The notes below the pieces were generated by a model. The model saw only the letters and a program-made list of their open reading frames with translations, searched no databases and was not told the DNA's origin. Shown one piece after another: positions 1,956 to 51,609 of a DNA stretch of 55,039 bases. Source of the DNA: Gudongella sp. (GTDB lineage Bacteria > Bacillota > Clostridia > Tissierellales > Tissierellaceae); the NCBI GenBank assembly GCA_024649995.1, contig JANKMX010000009.1, forward strand, positions 1-55,039. Direction: 5' to 3'. How positions within the stretch are numbered: the first letter of the stretch is position 1; every line of letters starts with the position of its first letter. The translations under genes and the position numbers were made by a program.

Positions 1956-2096
1956 ACTAGGGTCTAGGACTCTTCGCACTGCTCAGAGTGACAAATAATG
2001 TCATAAGTGCCCGGCAATAGAAATATCCAAAATCTTTGATTTTGATATATTTCATTGAGAGGGTAGCTGAGTATAACGAAGGATCCTGGACCCTAA
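1956..2096 (+). repeat. Repeat A, copy 1, split by a B element
   Basis: Left arm AGGGTCTAGGACTCTTCGCA through AGAGTGACA and right arm GCTGAGTATAACGAAGGATC through TGGACCCT form one imperfect palindrome matching the intact copy at 17989-18066. The middle, from about 2003 to 2065, is foreign to the intact copy and consists of repeat B. This is a nested insertion visible directly in the sequence. Confidence 0.82.
2008..2065 (+). repeat. Repeat B, copy 1 (58-bp hairpin)
   Basis: Starts TGCCCGGCAATAG and ends CATTGAGAGGGTA. The element folds end to end: TGCCC pairs with GGGTA, CAAT with ATTG, and GAAATATC plus AAAATC with GATTTT plus TATATTTC, around a TTT loop. Copies at 2227-2284 and 17643-17700 have exactly the same length and pair the same positions with different bases. 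It lies inside repeat A copy 1. Confidence 0.82.
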
Positions 2097-17717: not shown

Positions 17718-17750
17718 GTTGTCATCCCGACTGTAATGGAGGGATCTGGT
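17718..17750 (-). repeat. Repeat D, half copy
   Basis: Minus strand CCAGATCCCTCCATTACAGT then CGGGATGACAAC, matching one arm of the D palindromes around 50.0-50.5 kb. The opposite arm is absent. It touches the left end of repeat C copy 1. Confidence 0.65.
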
Positions 17751-17755
17751 TTTTA

Positions 17756-17934
17756 TTCACTCTTAGGTGTTTGCCCGCAGTTCTTGATTCAAGTCCGAGA
17801 AAAATCATCAGCTCGTTTTTTCCATTGATTCCTATGCCGCTTCTCTTGGAGGAATCAAATCATTTCAAAATCCTCGCTGGATTTTTCAGTCGTTCTTTCA
17901 TATGAACCGCTTGCCAAAGCACCTTTCGAGTGAA
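17756..17934 (+). repeat. Repeat C, copy 1 (179-bp structured element)
   Basis: Ends TTCACTC and GAGTGAA are complementary; next to them GGTGTTTG can pair with CAAAGCACC (one bulge). Inside are two hairpins kept in both copies: GATTCCT/AGGAATC and AAATCC-TCGCT-GGATTT. The second copy, inverted at 25526-25704, has exactly the same length and is roughly 80-85% identical by eye. No open reading frame spans it. Confidence 0.82.
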
Positions 17935-17988
17935 CAACAGTTTTGATCCTGAGGTTCACTGAGGAGTCTTTTATAGCTTAGACAAAAC

Positions 17989-18066
17989 TTAAGGGTCCAG
18001 GACTCTTCGCGCTACTCAGAGTGACAAAATATGTCGTCCTGAGTGTAACGAAGGATCTTGGACCCT
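17989..18066. repeat. Repeat A, intact palindrome
   Basis: Left arm AAGGGTCCAGGACTCTTCGC continuing to AGAGTGACA. The right arm read on the other strand is CTAGGGTCCAAGATCCTTCG continuing to CTCAGGACGACA. This is the uninterrupted form against which the B insertion at 2008-2065 can be recognised. Confidence 0.82.
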
Positions 18067-25435: not shown

Positions 25436-25481
25436 GAGATCCCTCCACTTTGGTCGGGATGACCGATAATAGGTCGATCTC
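25436..25481. repeat. Repeat D, shortened palindrome
   Basis: GAGATCCCTCCACTTTGGTC followed by GGGATGAC, then a shortened right arm GGTCGATCTC. The outer GAGATC/GATCTC ends pair; the inner part of the right arm is lost compared with the 60-bp copies at 50.0-50.5 kb. Confidence 0.7.
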
Positions 25482-25517
25482 AAGGGTCCAGGACTCTTCG
25501 CACTGCTCAGAGTGACA
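25482..25517 (+). repeat. Repeat A, half copy
   Basis: AAGGGTCCAGGACTCTTCGC then ACTGCTCAGAGTGACA, almost identical to the left arm of the intact palindrome at 17989. The right arm is missing and repeat C copy 2 begins 8 bp on. Confidence 0.75.
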
Positions 25518-25525
25518 ATCTAGTA

Positions 25526-25704
25526 TTCGCTCGCAGAGTGCTTTGGTAAGCAGTTCATATGAAAGAACGACTTTAAAATCCAGCGAGGATTTCGGAGTGT
25601 TTTGATTCCTCCAAGCGCAGCGGCATAGGAATCAACAAAGAAAACGAGCTGATAATTTTATTCGGACTTGAATCCAGAACTGCGTGCAAACACCTAAGAG
25701 CGAA
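25526..25704 (-). repeat. Repeat C, copy 2 (179-bp structured element)
   Basis: Minus-strand ends are TTCGCTC and GAGCGAA, complementary like the TTCACTC/GAGTGAA of copy 1, with an A-to-G change answered by T-to-C. The adjoining GGTGTTTG still pairs with CAAAGCACT through one G-U. Both internal hairpins are kept. Just beyond its left end lies AAGATTCCTCAGCTGAACTT-GAAATGACA, a degenerate D/A-type half-arm. Confidence 0.82.
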
Positions 25705-25762
25705 AAGCCAAGATTCCTCAGCTGAACTTGAAATGACAAACCTTAGGCCGATAGCATTAAAA

Positions 25763-48669: not shown

Positions 48670-49917
48670 TTATTCCCCTAAAAACTTGCTTCTCTCCTCA
48701 GCTGGAACAAGACTTCCCCCTGTTGACCAAACCATTTGAACAGGCTCCCTGTCACGGTATCTGTCCTTTGTCAGGAACAGTCCGTTAAAGCCGGCTGTGG
48801 CCGAAGGTTCAACAAAGATTCCCTCCTGCCCGTACAGGGCCCTCAGGTATTTGAAAAGCTTGTCATCCTGTATTGTGAAGGCTCCTGTAAGGAGCTTGTC
48901 CATTACCTTTCCCACAAATGAGGACGGTCTTCCAACGGCTAGTCCATCCGCCTCTGTTTTATTGTCCAAGCCTATATCCTCAACGGATATCCCCTCGTGC
49001 CTTCCTGTTGCAAGACCCAGAAGCATACATGGCGAATGGGTTGGCTCTGCAAAATGGCACTCCACAAGGTCTCCATAGCTCAGCTTAAGACCGTAGGCAA
49101 CACCTCCAGGACCTCCGCCAACTCCGCAGGGAAGGTAGACCACCAGGGGATGCTTTTCATCCACAATCACACCCATTTCCTCAAGCTGTGACTTGACCCT
49201 CATTCCACCTGCCGCATAGCCAAGAAATAGGTCCCTGGAGTTTTCATCATCCACAAAGTGGCTCATAGGGTCACTGTCGGAATCCCTTCTGCCTTCCTCC
49301 ACTGCCTTTGAGTAGTCATCGGGATACTCAACAACCGTGACTCCCTTTGACCTAAGCATGTCCTTCTTCCACTGCTTGGCATCAGAGGACATATGAACCG
49401 TGACCTTAAAGCCCAGCTTTGCACTCATGATACCTATGCTCAATCCCAGGTTTCCGGTGCTTCCAACCTGGATCCTGTATTTGCTGAAAAAGTCCACAAA
49501 CTCCTTTTCAGCCAGCTTTCTGTAATCGTGGTCATAATGGAGCATCCCATTTTCAACCGCCAGTGTTTCGGCATGCTTTAGAACCTCGTAGATTCCACCT
49601 CTGGCCTTTATTGATCCGGCAATTGAAAGGAGATCGTCCCTTTTTAAGTACAATTCCCCGGGAATGGCACTTCCGCTGTCACGTTCAATCCAGCTCATCA
49701 TTTCCGGTATATGAGAAATGGGGGATTCTATAATTCCATCCTTTGATTCAGGAAACACCTTAGCCAAGTAAGGCGCGAAACGATGCAGTCTCTTCTCAGC
49801 CTCCATCACTTCATCCAATGTAATAGGAAGTTCACTCTTTATGTCATCAAATTTTCTGTATCCCGGGTTGGTCCAGTATACCTCCCGCATGGATTTGAGG
49901 TCATTAATTATATCCAT
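48670..49917 (-). CDS. dsdA: D-serine ammonia-lyase
   Basis: Converts D-serine to pyruvate and ammonia. A 415-residue fold-type II PLP enzyme with the Schiff-base lysine in [12 protein letters not shown] (Lys104), [20 protein letters not shown] for substrate binding, the phosphate-binding [18 protein letters not shown] and [10 protein letters not shown]. Length is slightly below the E. coli enzyme (about 440). It may detoxify or use D-serine released from peptides or cell walls. GGAGGG lies upstream of ATG, and a promoter with a hairpin-forming inverted repeat precedes it. No dsdC-type LysR gene is adjacent. Confidence 0.93.
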
Positions 49918-49938
49918 AATATCCCTCCAAATATAATA

Positions 49939-49961
49939 GTCTCAGATTACCCTTCTGAGAC
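49939..49961 (-). promoter_or_regulatory. Inverted repeat in the dsdA leader
   Basis: GTCTCAG-N9-CTGAGAC is a perfect 7+7 inverted repeat immediately downstream of the -10 box, about where transcription would start, and 22 bp before the ATG. Either an operator or an early mRNA hairpin. Confidence 0.5.
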
Positions 49962-49962
49962 C

Positions 49963-49991
49963 ATTATATAATAAATTAAGATTTTTGTCTT
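49963..49991 (-). promoter_or_regulatory. Probable promoter of dsdA and the M20C gene
   Basis: Minus strand AAGACA (49991-49986), 17-bp spacer, TATAAT (49968-49963). The -35 matches at four of six bases. Confidence 0.5.
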
Positions 49992-50038
49992 TATTATAGT
50001 GCTGTGAAAGAATTGACAAGGATCCTTCCTTTAAGATT

Positions 50039-50098
50039 GAGATCCCTCCGCTACGGTCGGGATGACATTTGTCATGCCGAGCTTAGTCGAGACATCTC
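50039..50098. repeat. Repeat D, full palindrome, downstream of the GIY-YIG gene
   Basis: Left arm GAGATCCCTCCGCTACGGTC then GGGATGACA; right arm read on the other strand GAGATGTCTCGACTAAGCTC then GGCATGACA. 60 bp, imperfectly palindromic. It ends 6 bp before the GIY-YIG stop codon. Confidence 0.85.
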
Positions 50099-50104
50099 GC
50101 TTTA

Positions 50105-50380
50105 CTATTTATCATACAAATCATTCCACGTTGGATTCATACTATCAACTAATGCTATCTTTTTCTCTCTTCTCCACTTTTTCAACTGTTTCTCTCTTAG
50201 TATTGCGCTTTCAACACTGTCAGTCTCTTCAACATATACTAGCTTGTTGACGTTATATTTATAGGTAAAACCATCAATCATCTTTGATTTATGTTCATAC
50301 ACTCTTCTGGTGATATCACTGGTTACTCCTATGTATAAAACATTGTTAGTTTTGTTGGTTAGAATGTATACGTAGTACAA
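50105..50380 (-). CDS. Solo GIY-YIG endonuclease domain protein
   Basis: A 91-residue stand-alone nuclease domain of the small UPF0213/YhbQ-like type. The two signature strands are YVYIL (residues 3-7) and YIG (16-18); Arg25 in DITRRVYEH and Glu63 in LREKQLKKW are the expected catalytic residues, so it should be active. The start is TTG at 50378-50380 with GGAGG 9 bp upstream. It lies between two nearly identical D palindromes, one 6 bp past its stop and one 42 bp before its start, and has no functional link to its neighbours. This looks like a small mobile unit. Its cutting target is unknown. Confidence 0.88.
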   Translation of the reverse strand: MYYVYILTNKTNNVLYIGVTSDITRRVYEHKSKMIDGFTYKYNVNKLVYVEETDSVESAILREKQLKKWRREKKIALVDSMNPTWNDLYDK

Positions 50381-50422
50381 TTTAAGTTACCTCCATTGGT
50401 ATGGTATAACAACCAAAAGCAT

Positions 50423-50483
50423 GAGATCCCTCCGCTCCGGTCGGGATGACAAGATGTCATGTCGAGCGTAGTCGAGACATCTC
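50423..50483. repeat. Repeat D, full palindrome, upstream of the GIY-YIG gene
   Basis: GAGATCCCTCCGCTCCGGTC then GGGATGACA; right arm TGTCATGTCGAGCGTAGTCG then AGACATCTC. It agrees with the copy at 50039-50098 at all but a few positions of both arms and lies in the same orientation. Confidence 0.85.
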
Positions 50484-50543
50484 ATACTTCATAGTCTACC
50501 CTCAAAAACTTAACCATTAACATTTAGGTATTAACCAAGTGCT

Positions 50544-50571
50544 AGATTCCTCCATTTCGGTCGGAATGACA
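50544..50571 (+). repeat. Repeat D, half copy
   Basis: AGATTCCTCCATTTCGGTCG then GAATGACA: one D arm only, followed by unrelated AT-rich sequence and the end of the dehydrogenase gene. Confidence 0.6.
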
Positions 50572-50616
50572 GTATGTCCATTGTTCACTTTTAAGCGTTC
50601 ATTGTCAATTGCTTTT

Positions 50617-51609
50617 TTAGCACTTTCCACTAACCACATTTTCGTTTCTCAAATTTACCGGTCTCTCTCCCCGTGCAATCCTGCCAACATCCCTTGCCGT
50701 AATCCTCAGCTGCTGTTCCTGGGCTTCATCGGAGAAGTAGGCACTGTGAGGGGTTACTATGACATTTGCAAGGCCCAAGAGACCCTTCTCGGCCTCTGTA
50801 GGGGGCTCATGGGTGAGGACATCAAGGCCGGCAGCAACGATCCTTCCACTCTTAAGCATATCATAGAGGGCCTCCTGGTCAATTATGGCTCCACGGGCGG
50901 TGTTTACAAGGACCAGACCCTCCCTGGTCCTTGAGAGGGCCTCCCTTGAGAAGATCCCCCTGGTCTCCTCCGTAAGTGGCGAATGTATTGTTATATAGTC
51001 GGATTCCGTTAGGAGTGTCTCGAATTCCACCTTCTGGACTCCATATTCATTCATCACGTCCTCATCCACATAGGGGTCATAGGAAATCATCCTCACCCCA
51101 AAGCCCTTTAGCTTCTGGGCAACAGCTCTGCCAATGGATCCAAAGGCAAATATACCTATAGTGGAGCCCTTAAGCCTCTTTACGCTTCCTATTCCATTTA
51201 CGGACCAGTCTCCCATGTCCACGTTTTTCTTCACATGAAGAAGCCTCCTGCCACAGGCAAGAAGCAGCATTACAGCATGGGCTGAAACCTCGTCCACACA
51301 GTAATCCTTTGCATTTGTAACCATGACACCGTTTCTTGTGGCGGCATCAATATCAGCAGCATCAAAGCCCGTGCTGGCAGTACAAAAGGCAATAAGGTCA
51401 AGGTCTCTGTAGAGCCCCTCATCCATCTGCTGATCCCAGGTCACAAGGATATCAACACCCTTCAGCTTCTCCAAGGCCTCCTCCCTTGAAAGAACAGGCT
51501 TTCCAAGGAAGGTGAAATCCTCAATTCCCTCATTCCTAATATATCCTTCAAGGCTCTGGACCTCTTCATCATTCATCCCAGGAACTCCAACCAATACAAC
51601 TTTTTTCAA
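50617..51609 (-). CDS. D-2-hydroxyacid dehydrogenase 3
   Basis: A 330-residue NAD-linked dehydrogenase, less similar to the tandem pair at 25.7-27.7 kb. The nucleotide fold reads GIFAFGSIGRAVAQKL (with Ala-Phe in place of the usual Gly-x-Gly spacing, but aligned). Catalytic Arg is in NTARGAIIDQ, Glu in LTHEPPT, His in TPHSAYF. The start is TTG at 51607-51609 with a GGGGGG site. It follows the aminotransferase gene by 12 bp, so it may reduce the 2-oxoacid that enzyme makes, a Stickland-like reductive branch (inference). Confidence 0.87.
   Translation of the reverse strand: MKKVVLVGVPGMNDEEVQSLEGYIRNEGIEDFTFLGKPVLSREEALEKLKGVDILVTWDQQMDEGLYRDLDLIAFCTASTGFDAADIDAATRNGVMVTNAKDYCVDEVSAHAVMLLLACGRRLLHVKKNVDMGDWSVNGIGSVKRLKGSTIGIFAFGSIGRAVAQKLKGFGVRMISYDPYVDEDVMNEYGVQKVEFETLLTESDYITIHSPLTEETRGIFSREALSRTREGLVLVNTARGAIIDQEALYDMLKSGRIVAAGLDVLTHEPPTEAEKGLLGLANVIVTPHSAYFSDEAQEQQLRITARDVGRIARGERPVNLRNENVVSGKC

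Follow-up and report, generated by a model that had tools for sequence, protein, structure and literature searches.

What is a small GIY-YIG nuclease gene doing between two nearly identical palindromes? The window, by which we mean the whole stretch of 55,039 nucleotides analysed here, comes from a Gudongella genome (G000; 2.55 Mb in 116 contigs) and holds two 61-bp "D" palindromes, 50039-50099 and 50423-50483, that are 90% identical and bracket the gene, with gaps of 6 bp and 42 bp to its open reading frame. A preliminary description, made from the sequence of the window, had proposed a self-spreading unit on the plan of REP palindromes and their RAYT transposase, with one nuclease and many target-like palindromes. 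The question reaches beyond this genus. For the CGTC-tagged REP superfamily, which includes Neisseria dRS3 and Rickettsia RPE-4 and RPE-6, a dedicated transposase is apparently lacking according to the passages available from its describers (Di Nocera, De Gregorio and Rocco, 2013; PMC3733652), and a table row for N. meningitidis in the part available of another paper gives 755 copies of dRS3 (PMC2267715).

Each D palindrome proved to be a head-to-head pair of hairpin units of about 29 nt, with their feet together (Table 1). The unit has the layout 5'-TGTC-AT...AT-CTC-3' and is asymmetric, with the GTC foot unpaired with the CTC tail. Among the units of the window the foot is TGTC (GGTC at 25436), the stem opens with ATxxx pairs and is then interrupted by a tandem G-A mismatch, and the tail is CTC, CTA or CTG. 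The palindrome is repeated above chance: the three best BLAST matches of full copies against their own genome gave E values of 6e-26, 8.5e-17 and 1.9e-15, and a palindrome model (R1) found at least 18 copies in G000 at E <= 0.1. Nuclease-less copies, which the preliminary description had placed at 17718, 25436 and 50544, were recovered as single units. Of five further units of the same superfamily, four are of a CTGA type, and the fifth, at 25710, is weak (E 0.012) and stands outside the CTGA/CGA typing. Two other features were seen near the palindromes. A 188-nt inverted repeat pair (17756-17943 and 25517-25704, 85% complementary) lies next to D-like units, and intergenic runs resembling ACAATTCACAATT or ACAATTGACAATGG occur in this genus at 50580-50622 of the window, L018:1310-1350 and L111:2470-2605.

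Table 1. Features of the window, with strand and basis of each call.
Feature	Position	Strand	Basis or remark
Small GIY-YIG nuclease gene, 91 aa, TTG start	50105-50380	-	ORF call and Pfam match
Probable ribosome-binding site, GGAGG on the coding strand	50390-50394	-	9 nt upstream of the start codon
D unit, polar hairpin TGTCATCCCGACC...GGAGGGATCTC	50039-50067	-	Palindrome model, 43.0 bits
D unit, head-to-head partner of 50039-50067, ATC tail towards gene	50070-50098	+	36.3 bits
D unit, start side of gene, ATC tail towards gene	50423-50451	-	41.3 bits
D unit, partner of 50423-50451	50455-50483	+	40.2 bits
Single D unit, outside the bracket	50543-50571	-	38.5 bits
Solitary D unit	17720-17748	+	34.3 bits
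Solitary D unit	25436-25464	-	33.3 bits
Unit of the same superfamily, CTGA type, probably not cognate	1966-1993	-	Palindrome model
Unit of the same superfamily, CTGA type	17999-18026	-	Palindrome model
Unit of the same superfamily, CTGA type	18032-18059	+	Palindrome model
Unit of the same superfamily, CTGA type	25490-25517	-	Palindrome model
Largest stretch without a clear counterpart in the congener G002	49995-50622	.	Minimum 50039-50483

The encoded protein matches the Pfam family PF01541 (GIY-YIG) above the cut-off (E 4.6e-18) and has the conserved Tyr, Tyr, Arg and Glu of the superfamily. Across a 35-row alignment of homologues Y5, Y16, G18, E63 and N82 are invariant and R26 and H30 nearly so (L051 was left out of one alignment, A4, for a stop within its translation). 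The preliminary description was right about a 91-residue GIY-YIG gene lying 6 and 42 bp from near-identical palindromes, but the Arg25 that it had listed as intact is invariant in a 7-row alignment only. In the predicted structure (mean pLDDT 96.5) the motif EKQLKKWRREKK, which comes after the conserved Glu63, falls at residues 65-74 in the turn between a helix that bears Glu63 (56-68) and a second helix (71-81). The nearest solved fold, and the sole match at E <= 0.001, is UPF0213 BH0048, with Slx1 next; the modelled likeness to Slx1, a branched-DNA nuclease, suggests a fold suited to a hairpin or cruciform target. Like other members of its superfamily, the protein would be expected to cleave DNA in a metal-dependent way. 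Close gene pairs have dN/dS values of 0.01-0.24 (11 of 18 listed pairs with finite dS, two rows being the same pair), so the protein is under purifying selection. G000 has two further GIY-YIG matches, a 627-residue ORF on contig C41 and a small gene on contig C72 that we take to be of the UPF0213/YhbQ type; beside the latter there was no palindrome within the stretch read. Three other identities for the nuclease were considered and rejected. Zero phage records match the protein at E <= 1e-8, PADLOC matches to defence genes are weak and partial only, and a RAYT-type enzyme is rejected, its NCBIfam and Pfam matches including no transposase family.

We looked for the same bracketing beside relatives of the gene. 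The discovery set consisted of the best 80 of at least 582 relatives from a profile scan of species genomes; by our own assignment, the titles of their records span at least 15 names of phylum rank. A finder scanned 150 bp on the upstream side and 160 bp on the downstream side, counted from the matched part of the gene, for a GTC foot followed by a stem starting AT or AC, with at least 6 of 9 pairs, the first four positions paired and a loop of 3-45. Among the 74 of 80 loci with both flanks long enough, such a palindrome occurred on at least one side in 62 and on both in 41; taken by side, it was found upstream at 49/77 loci and downstream at 60/77. Distant 150-bp windows at the same loci, more than 1000 bp off, were positive in 70 of 1734 cases, and shuffled flanks in 13 of 770. 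With stricter stems (at least 7 of 9 pairs) the comparison was 41/74 loci against 34/1633 distant windows. Two other sets, with flanks of 150 bp on each side, finder loops from 2 rather than 3 and distant windows from 400 bp off, gave a similar picture. Bracketing was seen at 63/87 alphaproteobacterial loci against 21/496 distant windows (89 of 121 listed places were taken and 87 of these counted), and at 79/94 loci of Bacteroidota against 92/1072 (94 of 100 genes, short flanks and identical genes having been dropped; 89 loci were among the matches listed, with about a dozen picked for closely spaced copies). The preliminary description had named as damaging a gene inherited vertically at this locus in many species with no palindromes; in the three sets the gene is usually not at a palindrome-free site. 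Some of the finder-negative loci (12/74, 24/87 and 15/94) show a palindrome by eye.

Other GIY-YIG genes detected by the same profile in the window's phylum served as controls, and a palindrome was found at 0 of 23; ten of these genes come from genomes that have one palindrome match or more. The two kinds of gene are well separated in 52 genomes of that phylum, with profile scores of 147.8-155.7 bits for the nuclease group and 27.7-60.5 bits for the other GIY-YIG genes; in other phyla, group members scoring between 77 and 147 bits occur. The association also appears when no motif is specified. An exact repeat of at least 14 bp, direct or inverted, joins the two 200-bp flanks of the same locus in 74/123, 51/86 and 62/97 cases, against 110, 47 and 64 per 2500 draws for flanks of mismatched loci and 0/23 for the control genes. 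GTC is invariant in alignments A3 and A6, as the finder requires it to be, and the stem pairs of A3 are strictly Watson-Crick; covariation in that stem is circular, because the finder requires pairing, and we did not use it as evidence. The distant windows, shuffles and control genes together rule out chance or hot-spot bracketing. We accordingly give very little credence to the idea that repeat-rich intergenic regions tolerate insertions and that the gene came to lie beside palindromes by accident: such regions do occur in these genomes, distant windows being 4-9% positive across the three sets, but the control genes lack palindromes even where the genome has them, most copies of the nuclease gene carry a matching pair, and a link between protein motif and palindrome, described below, is seen in new data.

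The units around the gene are also oriented. Where the nearest units within 250 bp were scored in the discovery set, the arrangements were +gene- 22, -gene- 11, +gene+ 11 and -gene+ 4. Unit tails mostly point towards the gene, with 69 +gene- against 21 -gene+ among opposite-facing pairs pooled over the sets; the tendency is weaker in Bacteroidota (25 against 13).

If gene and palindrome belong together, their numbers per genome are of interest. The gene is present in 6/398 genomes of the window's phylum (E <= 1e-12), 68/240 Alphaproteobacteria (E <= 1e-22) and 84/198 Bacteroidota. A single blastn query showed no homologue among E. coli genomes. By covariance model, 6/6 gene-bearing genomes of the window's phylum have at least four palindrome copies, as do 14/392 other genomes. 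A second model (R2) found at least five copies in 54/68 Alphaproteobacteria with the gene and 18/172 without it, with medians of 19 and 0, which answers the preliminary description's concern that D-like palindromes might be equally common in genomes lacking the gene. Per-genome counts at their top value are to be read as at least 18 in the window's phylum and at least 30 in Alphaproteobacteria. Both models had units next to the gene as their training data, and because the genomes are phylogenetically non-independent, the p values of Fisher's test overstate the significance. Exceptions occur in both directions: 14/68 gene-bearing Alphaproteobacteria have fewer than five R2-type copies, and 15/172 gene-less ones have at least ten. 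A profile search of the 14 palindrome-bearing, gene-less genomes of the window's phylum found no gene of the nuclease group, and palindromes without the gene occur in single-contig genomes (G301 and G018).

Genomes of this last kind are what one would expect if the palindromes spread by some other means and a homing-like nuclease gene cuts them and lands between them, recognizing them without spreading them. This is the main rival explanation, and the best named PHROG relatives of the nuclease, which are homing endonucleases, also speak for it. We nevertheless consider it unlikely. Palindrome abundance strongly tracks the gene, and, by the available passages, the 2013 description found no other dedicated enzyme (PMC3733652); the structure of the insertions, taken up below, tells against it as well.

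We next asked whether enzyme and palindrome change together. In genomes with several copies of the gene, palindrome pairs vary between copies and mostly match within a copy; the Algibacter genome G419 has seven copies, with units found by the finder in five and by eye in two. Palindromes matched in 29/40 comparisons within a locus, 10/188 across loci of the same genome and 41/1452 between genomes. Between phyla, proteins that are alike tend to have palindromes that are alike (protein distance against palindrome stem, 83 loci, different-phylum pairs; Mantel r -0.247, p 5e-4, the minimum for 2000 permutations), and the nearest protein in another phylum had the same stem in 44/83 cases against 16.7 expected. 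To assemble that set, nine loci that were refetched or duplicate were removed from 88 and 41 copies were added; the 83 that contained an element and lacked a stop were kept, and a locus whose title named no phylum was treated as a phylum by itself. Such covariation, on which the proposed recognition of the palindrome by the nuclease is based, would also be compatible with the homing-like rival.

The six residues after E-K-x-x-K go with the palindrome class. In the discovery set, post hoc and with the loci recounted under a single rule, proteins of the GG[SP]R type went with interrupted stems (15/15) and TTGCGA (14/15), those of the WxRxxK type with interrupted stems (42/44), those of the WHxxWK type with [GA]AACT (7/7), and other aromatic types with perfect stems (19/21). 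The rule was recorded before new data were fetched. Applied in its original form to alphaproteobacterial loci with an element, it gave 39 WxRxWK proteins with noGA and 2 with NNNGA, both of these having perfect stems; GSR was right in 2/2, WxRxKK right in two and wrong in two, and WHRxWK right in 0/1. The classes were redrawn after these data had been seen: aromatic replaced Trp only, perfect or interrupted replaced the GA string, and GG[SP]R was slightly widened. Under the redrawn rule, the 48 aromatic alphaproteobacterial proteins had 38 perfect, 7 interrupted and 3 mixed stems, and non-aromatic ones had interrupted stems in 4/5 (Fisher p 0.006).

For the redrawn rule the Bacteroidota were new data. 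Non-aromatic proteins there had interrupted stems in 34/34 cases, and WHxxWK proteins had perfect stems with [GA]AACT in 8/8, a sequence also found with 2/24 other aromatic and 1/26 WxRxxK proteins. The other aromatic proteins (n=24) had 16 perfect, 5 mixed and 3 interrupted stems. One prediction failed, TTGCGA accompanying GG[SP]R in 3/8 only. The Fisher value of 5e-14 is inflated by relatedness, and since chance finder matches would mostly land in the interrupted class, the rule is tested more severely by perfect stems and by [GA]AACT. On new data the predictions were borne out for the most part, not wholly. Within the WxRxxK type, the residue before W further separates the fifth stem base, post hoc: G goes with T in 36 and C in 7, and K, R, N, S, Q or H with C in 18 and T in 5 (p 1.7e-6). 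The window fits, with a KW-motif nuclease and CGA in all seven D units. CTGA, the type of the four further units in the window, tends to go mostly with GW-motif nucleases elsewhere; given this post hoc tendency, the earlier suggestion that the window's nuclease also mobilises the other repeat families there finds no support.

Having found that gene and palindromes go together, we looked for signs that they move together. In the congener G002 the same two neighbour genes (79% and 89% identity) are about 110 bp apart, against 699 bp in the window, and by alignment the nuclease gene and both palindromes are absent from the gap, reflecting insertion in G000 or loss in G002. G002 aligns at 49917-49994 and 50623-50640, with short inner alignments of doubtful meaning. 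The genus has four genomes, one of which (G001) holds a 70% homologue elsewhere (L018) with D-like units on both sides. In Azospirillum lipoferum 4B the gene lies in the sufB-sufC gap with palindromes on each side, and the insert is absent in A. ramasamyi (96%), A. oryzae (96%), B510 (95%) and A. thermophilum (90%). Shinella sp. PSBB067 has, in the same sufB-sufC gap, an independent-looking unit with a different palindrome. A Planktothrix unit sits between an MmeI-type gene and drmA; at this locus (L106, a Planktothrix agardhii plasmid) the annotation gives the MmeI gene as type IIL and drmA as the DISARM helicase gene. Between two gonococcal records, which differ around the locus and both have the gene, no insertion was resolved, and the comparisons caught no insertion at the level of strains.

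Duplications give some indication of what is copied. At L383 two copies 1.1 kb apart and 91% identical share 349 bp from CGTC foot to CGTC foot, and their immediate flanks differ. At L377 (G731:C86:43500-47800) three palindrome-gene units stand in tandem at a spacing of about 410-420 bp, and at L375 a 99% duplicate of 420 bp ends just beyond the palindromes. At L191 (G422:C112:26700-28350) the unit is flanked by a direct duplication of 48 bp, which repeats the beginning of a coding gene; on our reading of the translation, that gene encodes an E2-type dehydrogenase component. The genome in question (G422, a Flavobacterium MAG) has four GIY-YIG units, L190-L193, within about 9 kb, three of which have palindromes without a GTC foot, and an 18-bp inverted duplication lies at the left edge of L193 (G422:C112:24650-26350). 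A general target-site duplication was not found: among 218 loci, adjacent direct repeats occurred in 4 of 88 units stemmed on both sides, two of them the same locus. Gene copies number 2-8 in 13 of 26 genomes (26 of the 80 of the discovery set) and reach 10 per genome.

The insertion sites examined are unrelated loci (sufB-sufC, MmeI-drmA and DAL-HADH), with sufB-sufC hit twice. That they are not one conserved allele, and that the L383 duplicate is bounded by palindrome feet, both count against the homing-like rival. A domesticated host function would account for the strong purifying selection, for the co-occurrence of gene and palindromes, and for the modelled fold closest to UPF0213 and the branched-DNA nuclease Slx1; the nuclease would then trim or resolve REP-type hairpins and cruciforms, protecting replication, and be kept near them by selection and not mobility. 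We regard this as improbable given the patchy distribution of the gene, the many genomes with several copies, mostly each with its own palindrome pair, and the empty orthologous sites. Patchiness, multiple copies and empty sites amount instead to mobile-element-like behaviour, and together with the foot-to-foot duplicate they are signs of the self-spreading unit that the preliminary description proposed.

How does this system relate to those already known? The units resemble the CGTC superfamily, as far as the available passages describe it, in being short polar hairpins with an unpaired CGTC or TGTC at one end and stems beginning AT, in forming head-to-head dimers and in having many genomic copies (PMC3733652). 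A. lipoferum is among the carrier species listed in those passages. Perfect-stem units by the gene in A. lipoferum 4B and Rhizobium sp. CIAT894 end in CCA, the tail given there, and the repeats next to the N. gonorrhoeae gene have the dRS3 stem. Window units, apart from the one with GGTC at 25436, have a foot within the range given in the passages (CGTC, with variants TGTC and CCTC). The stem given there, 8-9 bp from AT with a loop of 4-5, fits the perfect-stem classes, and the G-A mismatch type of the window lies outside those passages. Alphaproteobacterial units mostly carry the CCA tail but those of the window do not, so we treat the latter as a variant beside the published families, not a member. 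The published families, in these passages, come without a dedicated enzyme, whereas the units here bracket a GIY-YIG gene and lie beside it in more phyla than the published five. The term GIY is absent from the 2013 paper (PMC3733652), the passages available from a 2006 GIY-YIG survey make no link to palindromes, and neither nuclease nor transposase occurs as a term in a 2025 REP survey. Among the matches listed from the open-licence PMC literature none makes the GIY-YIG-palindrome link, which may have been published elsewhere.

The REP/RAYT-like plan of the preliminary description is supported. As in RAYT/REPtron systems (TnpA-REP, GTAG-tagged REPs, REPINs), inverted palindromes stand on either side of one small nuclease gene, more palindromes lie elsewhere, singly or in pairs, the unpaired foot is conserved, and some classes have stem mismatches, as E. 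coli REP has in the passages available. The enzyme, however, is GIY-YIG, unrelated to the HUH tyrosine transposase, and the foot is GTC, not GTAG. Its gene is patchily distributed and multicopy in many genomes; TnpA-REP genes, by contrast, are described in the passages available as housekeeping-like. A classical IS or MITE has terminal repeats with short target duplications of fixed length; the units here showed adjacent direct repeats in 4 of 88 cases and one 48-bp duplication (L191).

Free-standing GIY-YIG homing endonucleases spread selfishly through DNA cutting. The window's nuclease has the catalytic domain in common with them, but its roughly 90 residues leave no room for an extra DNA-binding domain, and unrelated insertion sites, with matching sequence carried as flanking palindromes, differ from a single conserved empty allele. 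Small GIY-YIG proteins of the UPF0213 type, presumably the YhbQ group, are similar in size and fold (closest solved structures 1ZG2 and 1YWL); they differ in that the L019 protein, as read by eye, has no NPxWxDL tail, and in the absence of palindromes at the 23 other GIY-YIG genes.

A second gene family shows a similar arrangement. DUF559 (PF04480) genes, which we take to encode a nuclease, adjoin CCCTCTCCC/GGGAGAGGG-type palindromes in Alphaproteobacteria, seen by eye in the five plasmid loci, one of which (L149) is in a sufB-sufC gap; the DUF559 genes in question are at L149:1029-1439, L222-L225, L316-L333 and L342-L345. In a set of 22 loci, one truncated locus having been dropped, the flanks of the same locus shared a match of at least 14 bp in 10/21 cases against 20/420 for mismatched flanks, and GTC-type palindromes were present at 2/21. 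The arrangement has the look of a second system that runs in parallel and whose enzyme is unrelated. As for GIY-YIG, none of the matches listed in the open-licence PMC literature links DUF559 to palindromes.

The gene-palindrome pairing recurs in many bacterial groups, with enzyme and repeat changing together, and the nuclease is therefore probably the missing partner enzyme of a widespread family of repeats. We accordingly favour, as the probable reading of the comparative evidence, that the GIY-YIG protein is the cognate, palindrome-recognizing enzyme of TGTC/CGTC-tagged REP-type palindromes and forms mobile units with them. Palindrome, gene and palindrome would make up a mobile unit of about 350-450 bp, with GTC feet outward and ATC tails to the gene, and solitary and paired palindromes would be its non-autonomous offspring. 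Cutting and the mode of spread we infer as follows. The nuclease may bind its own palindrome when this is folded as a hairpin or cruciform, and nick beside the GTC foot, which is unpaired; repair or replication could then use the 3' end set free to copy the palindrome or the whole unit to a new site, probably while the DNA is single-stranded. GIY-YIG enzymes cut by hydrolysis and are not known to join strands as HUH transposases do, so the unit should rely on the host's repair or replication to spread.

There is about an even chance, in our judgement, that these units exemplify a general and very large class of minimal mobile elements, "nuclease-REPs", in which a lone hydrolytic nuclease of about 90 residues and the palindrome that it recognizes manage without transposase, recombinase or reverse transcriptase, through structure-specific nicking and host repair. 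The short turn after the conserved Glu would read the palindrome in a code that could be tabulated, DUF559 with CCCTCTCCC/GGGAGAGGG would be a parallel class, and the two would jointly explain many orphan intergenic palindromes, including dRS3. With a candidate enzyme whose recognition motif is largely predictive, the question of the partner enzyme can be put directly to the test, with a 90-residue protein and a 29-nt hairpin. Such an enzyme would also assign a role to genes listed in public records simply as "GIY-YIG nuclease family protein", and would point to a compact nuclease family whose specificity is seemingly set by few residues.
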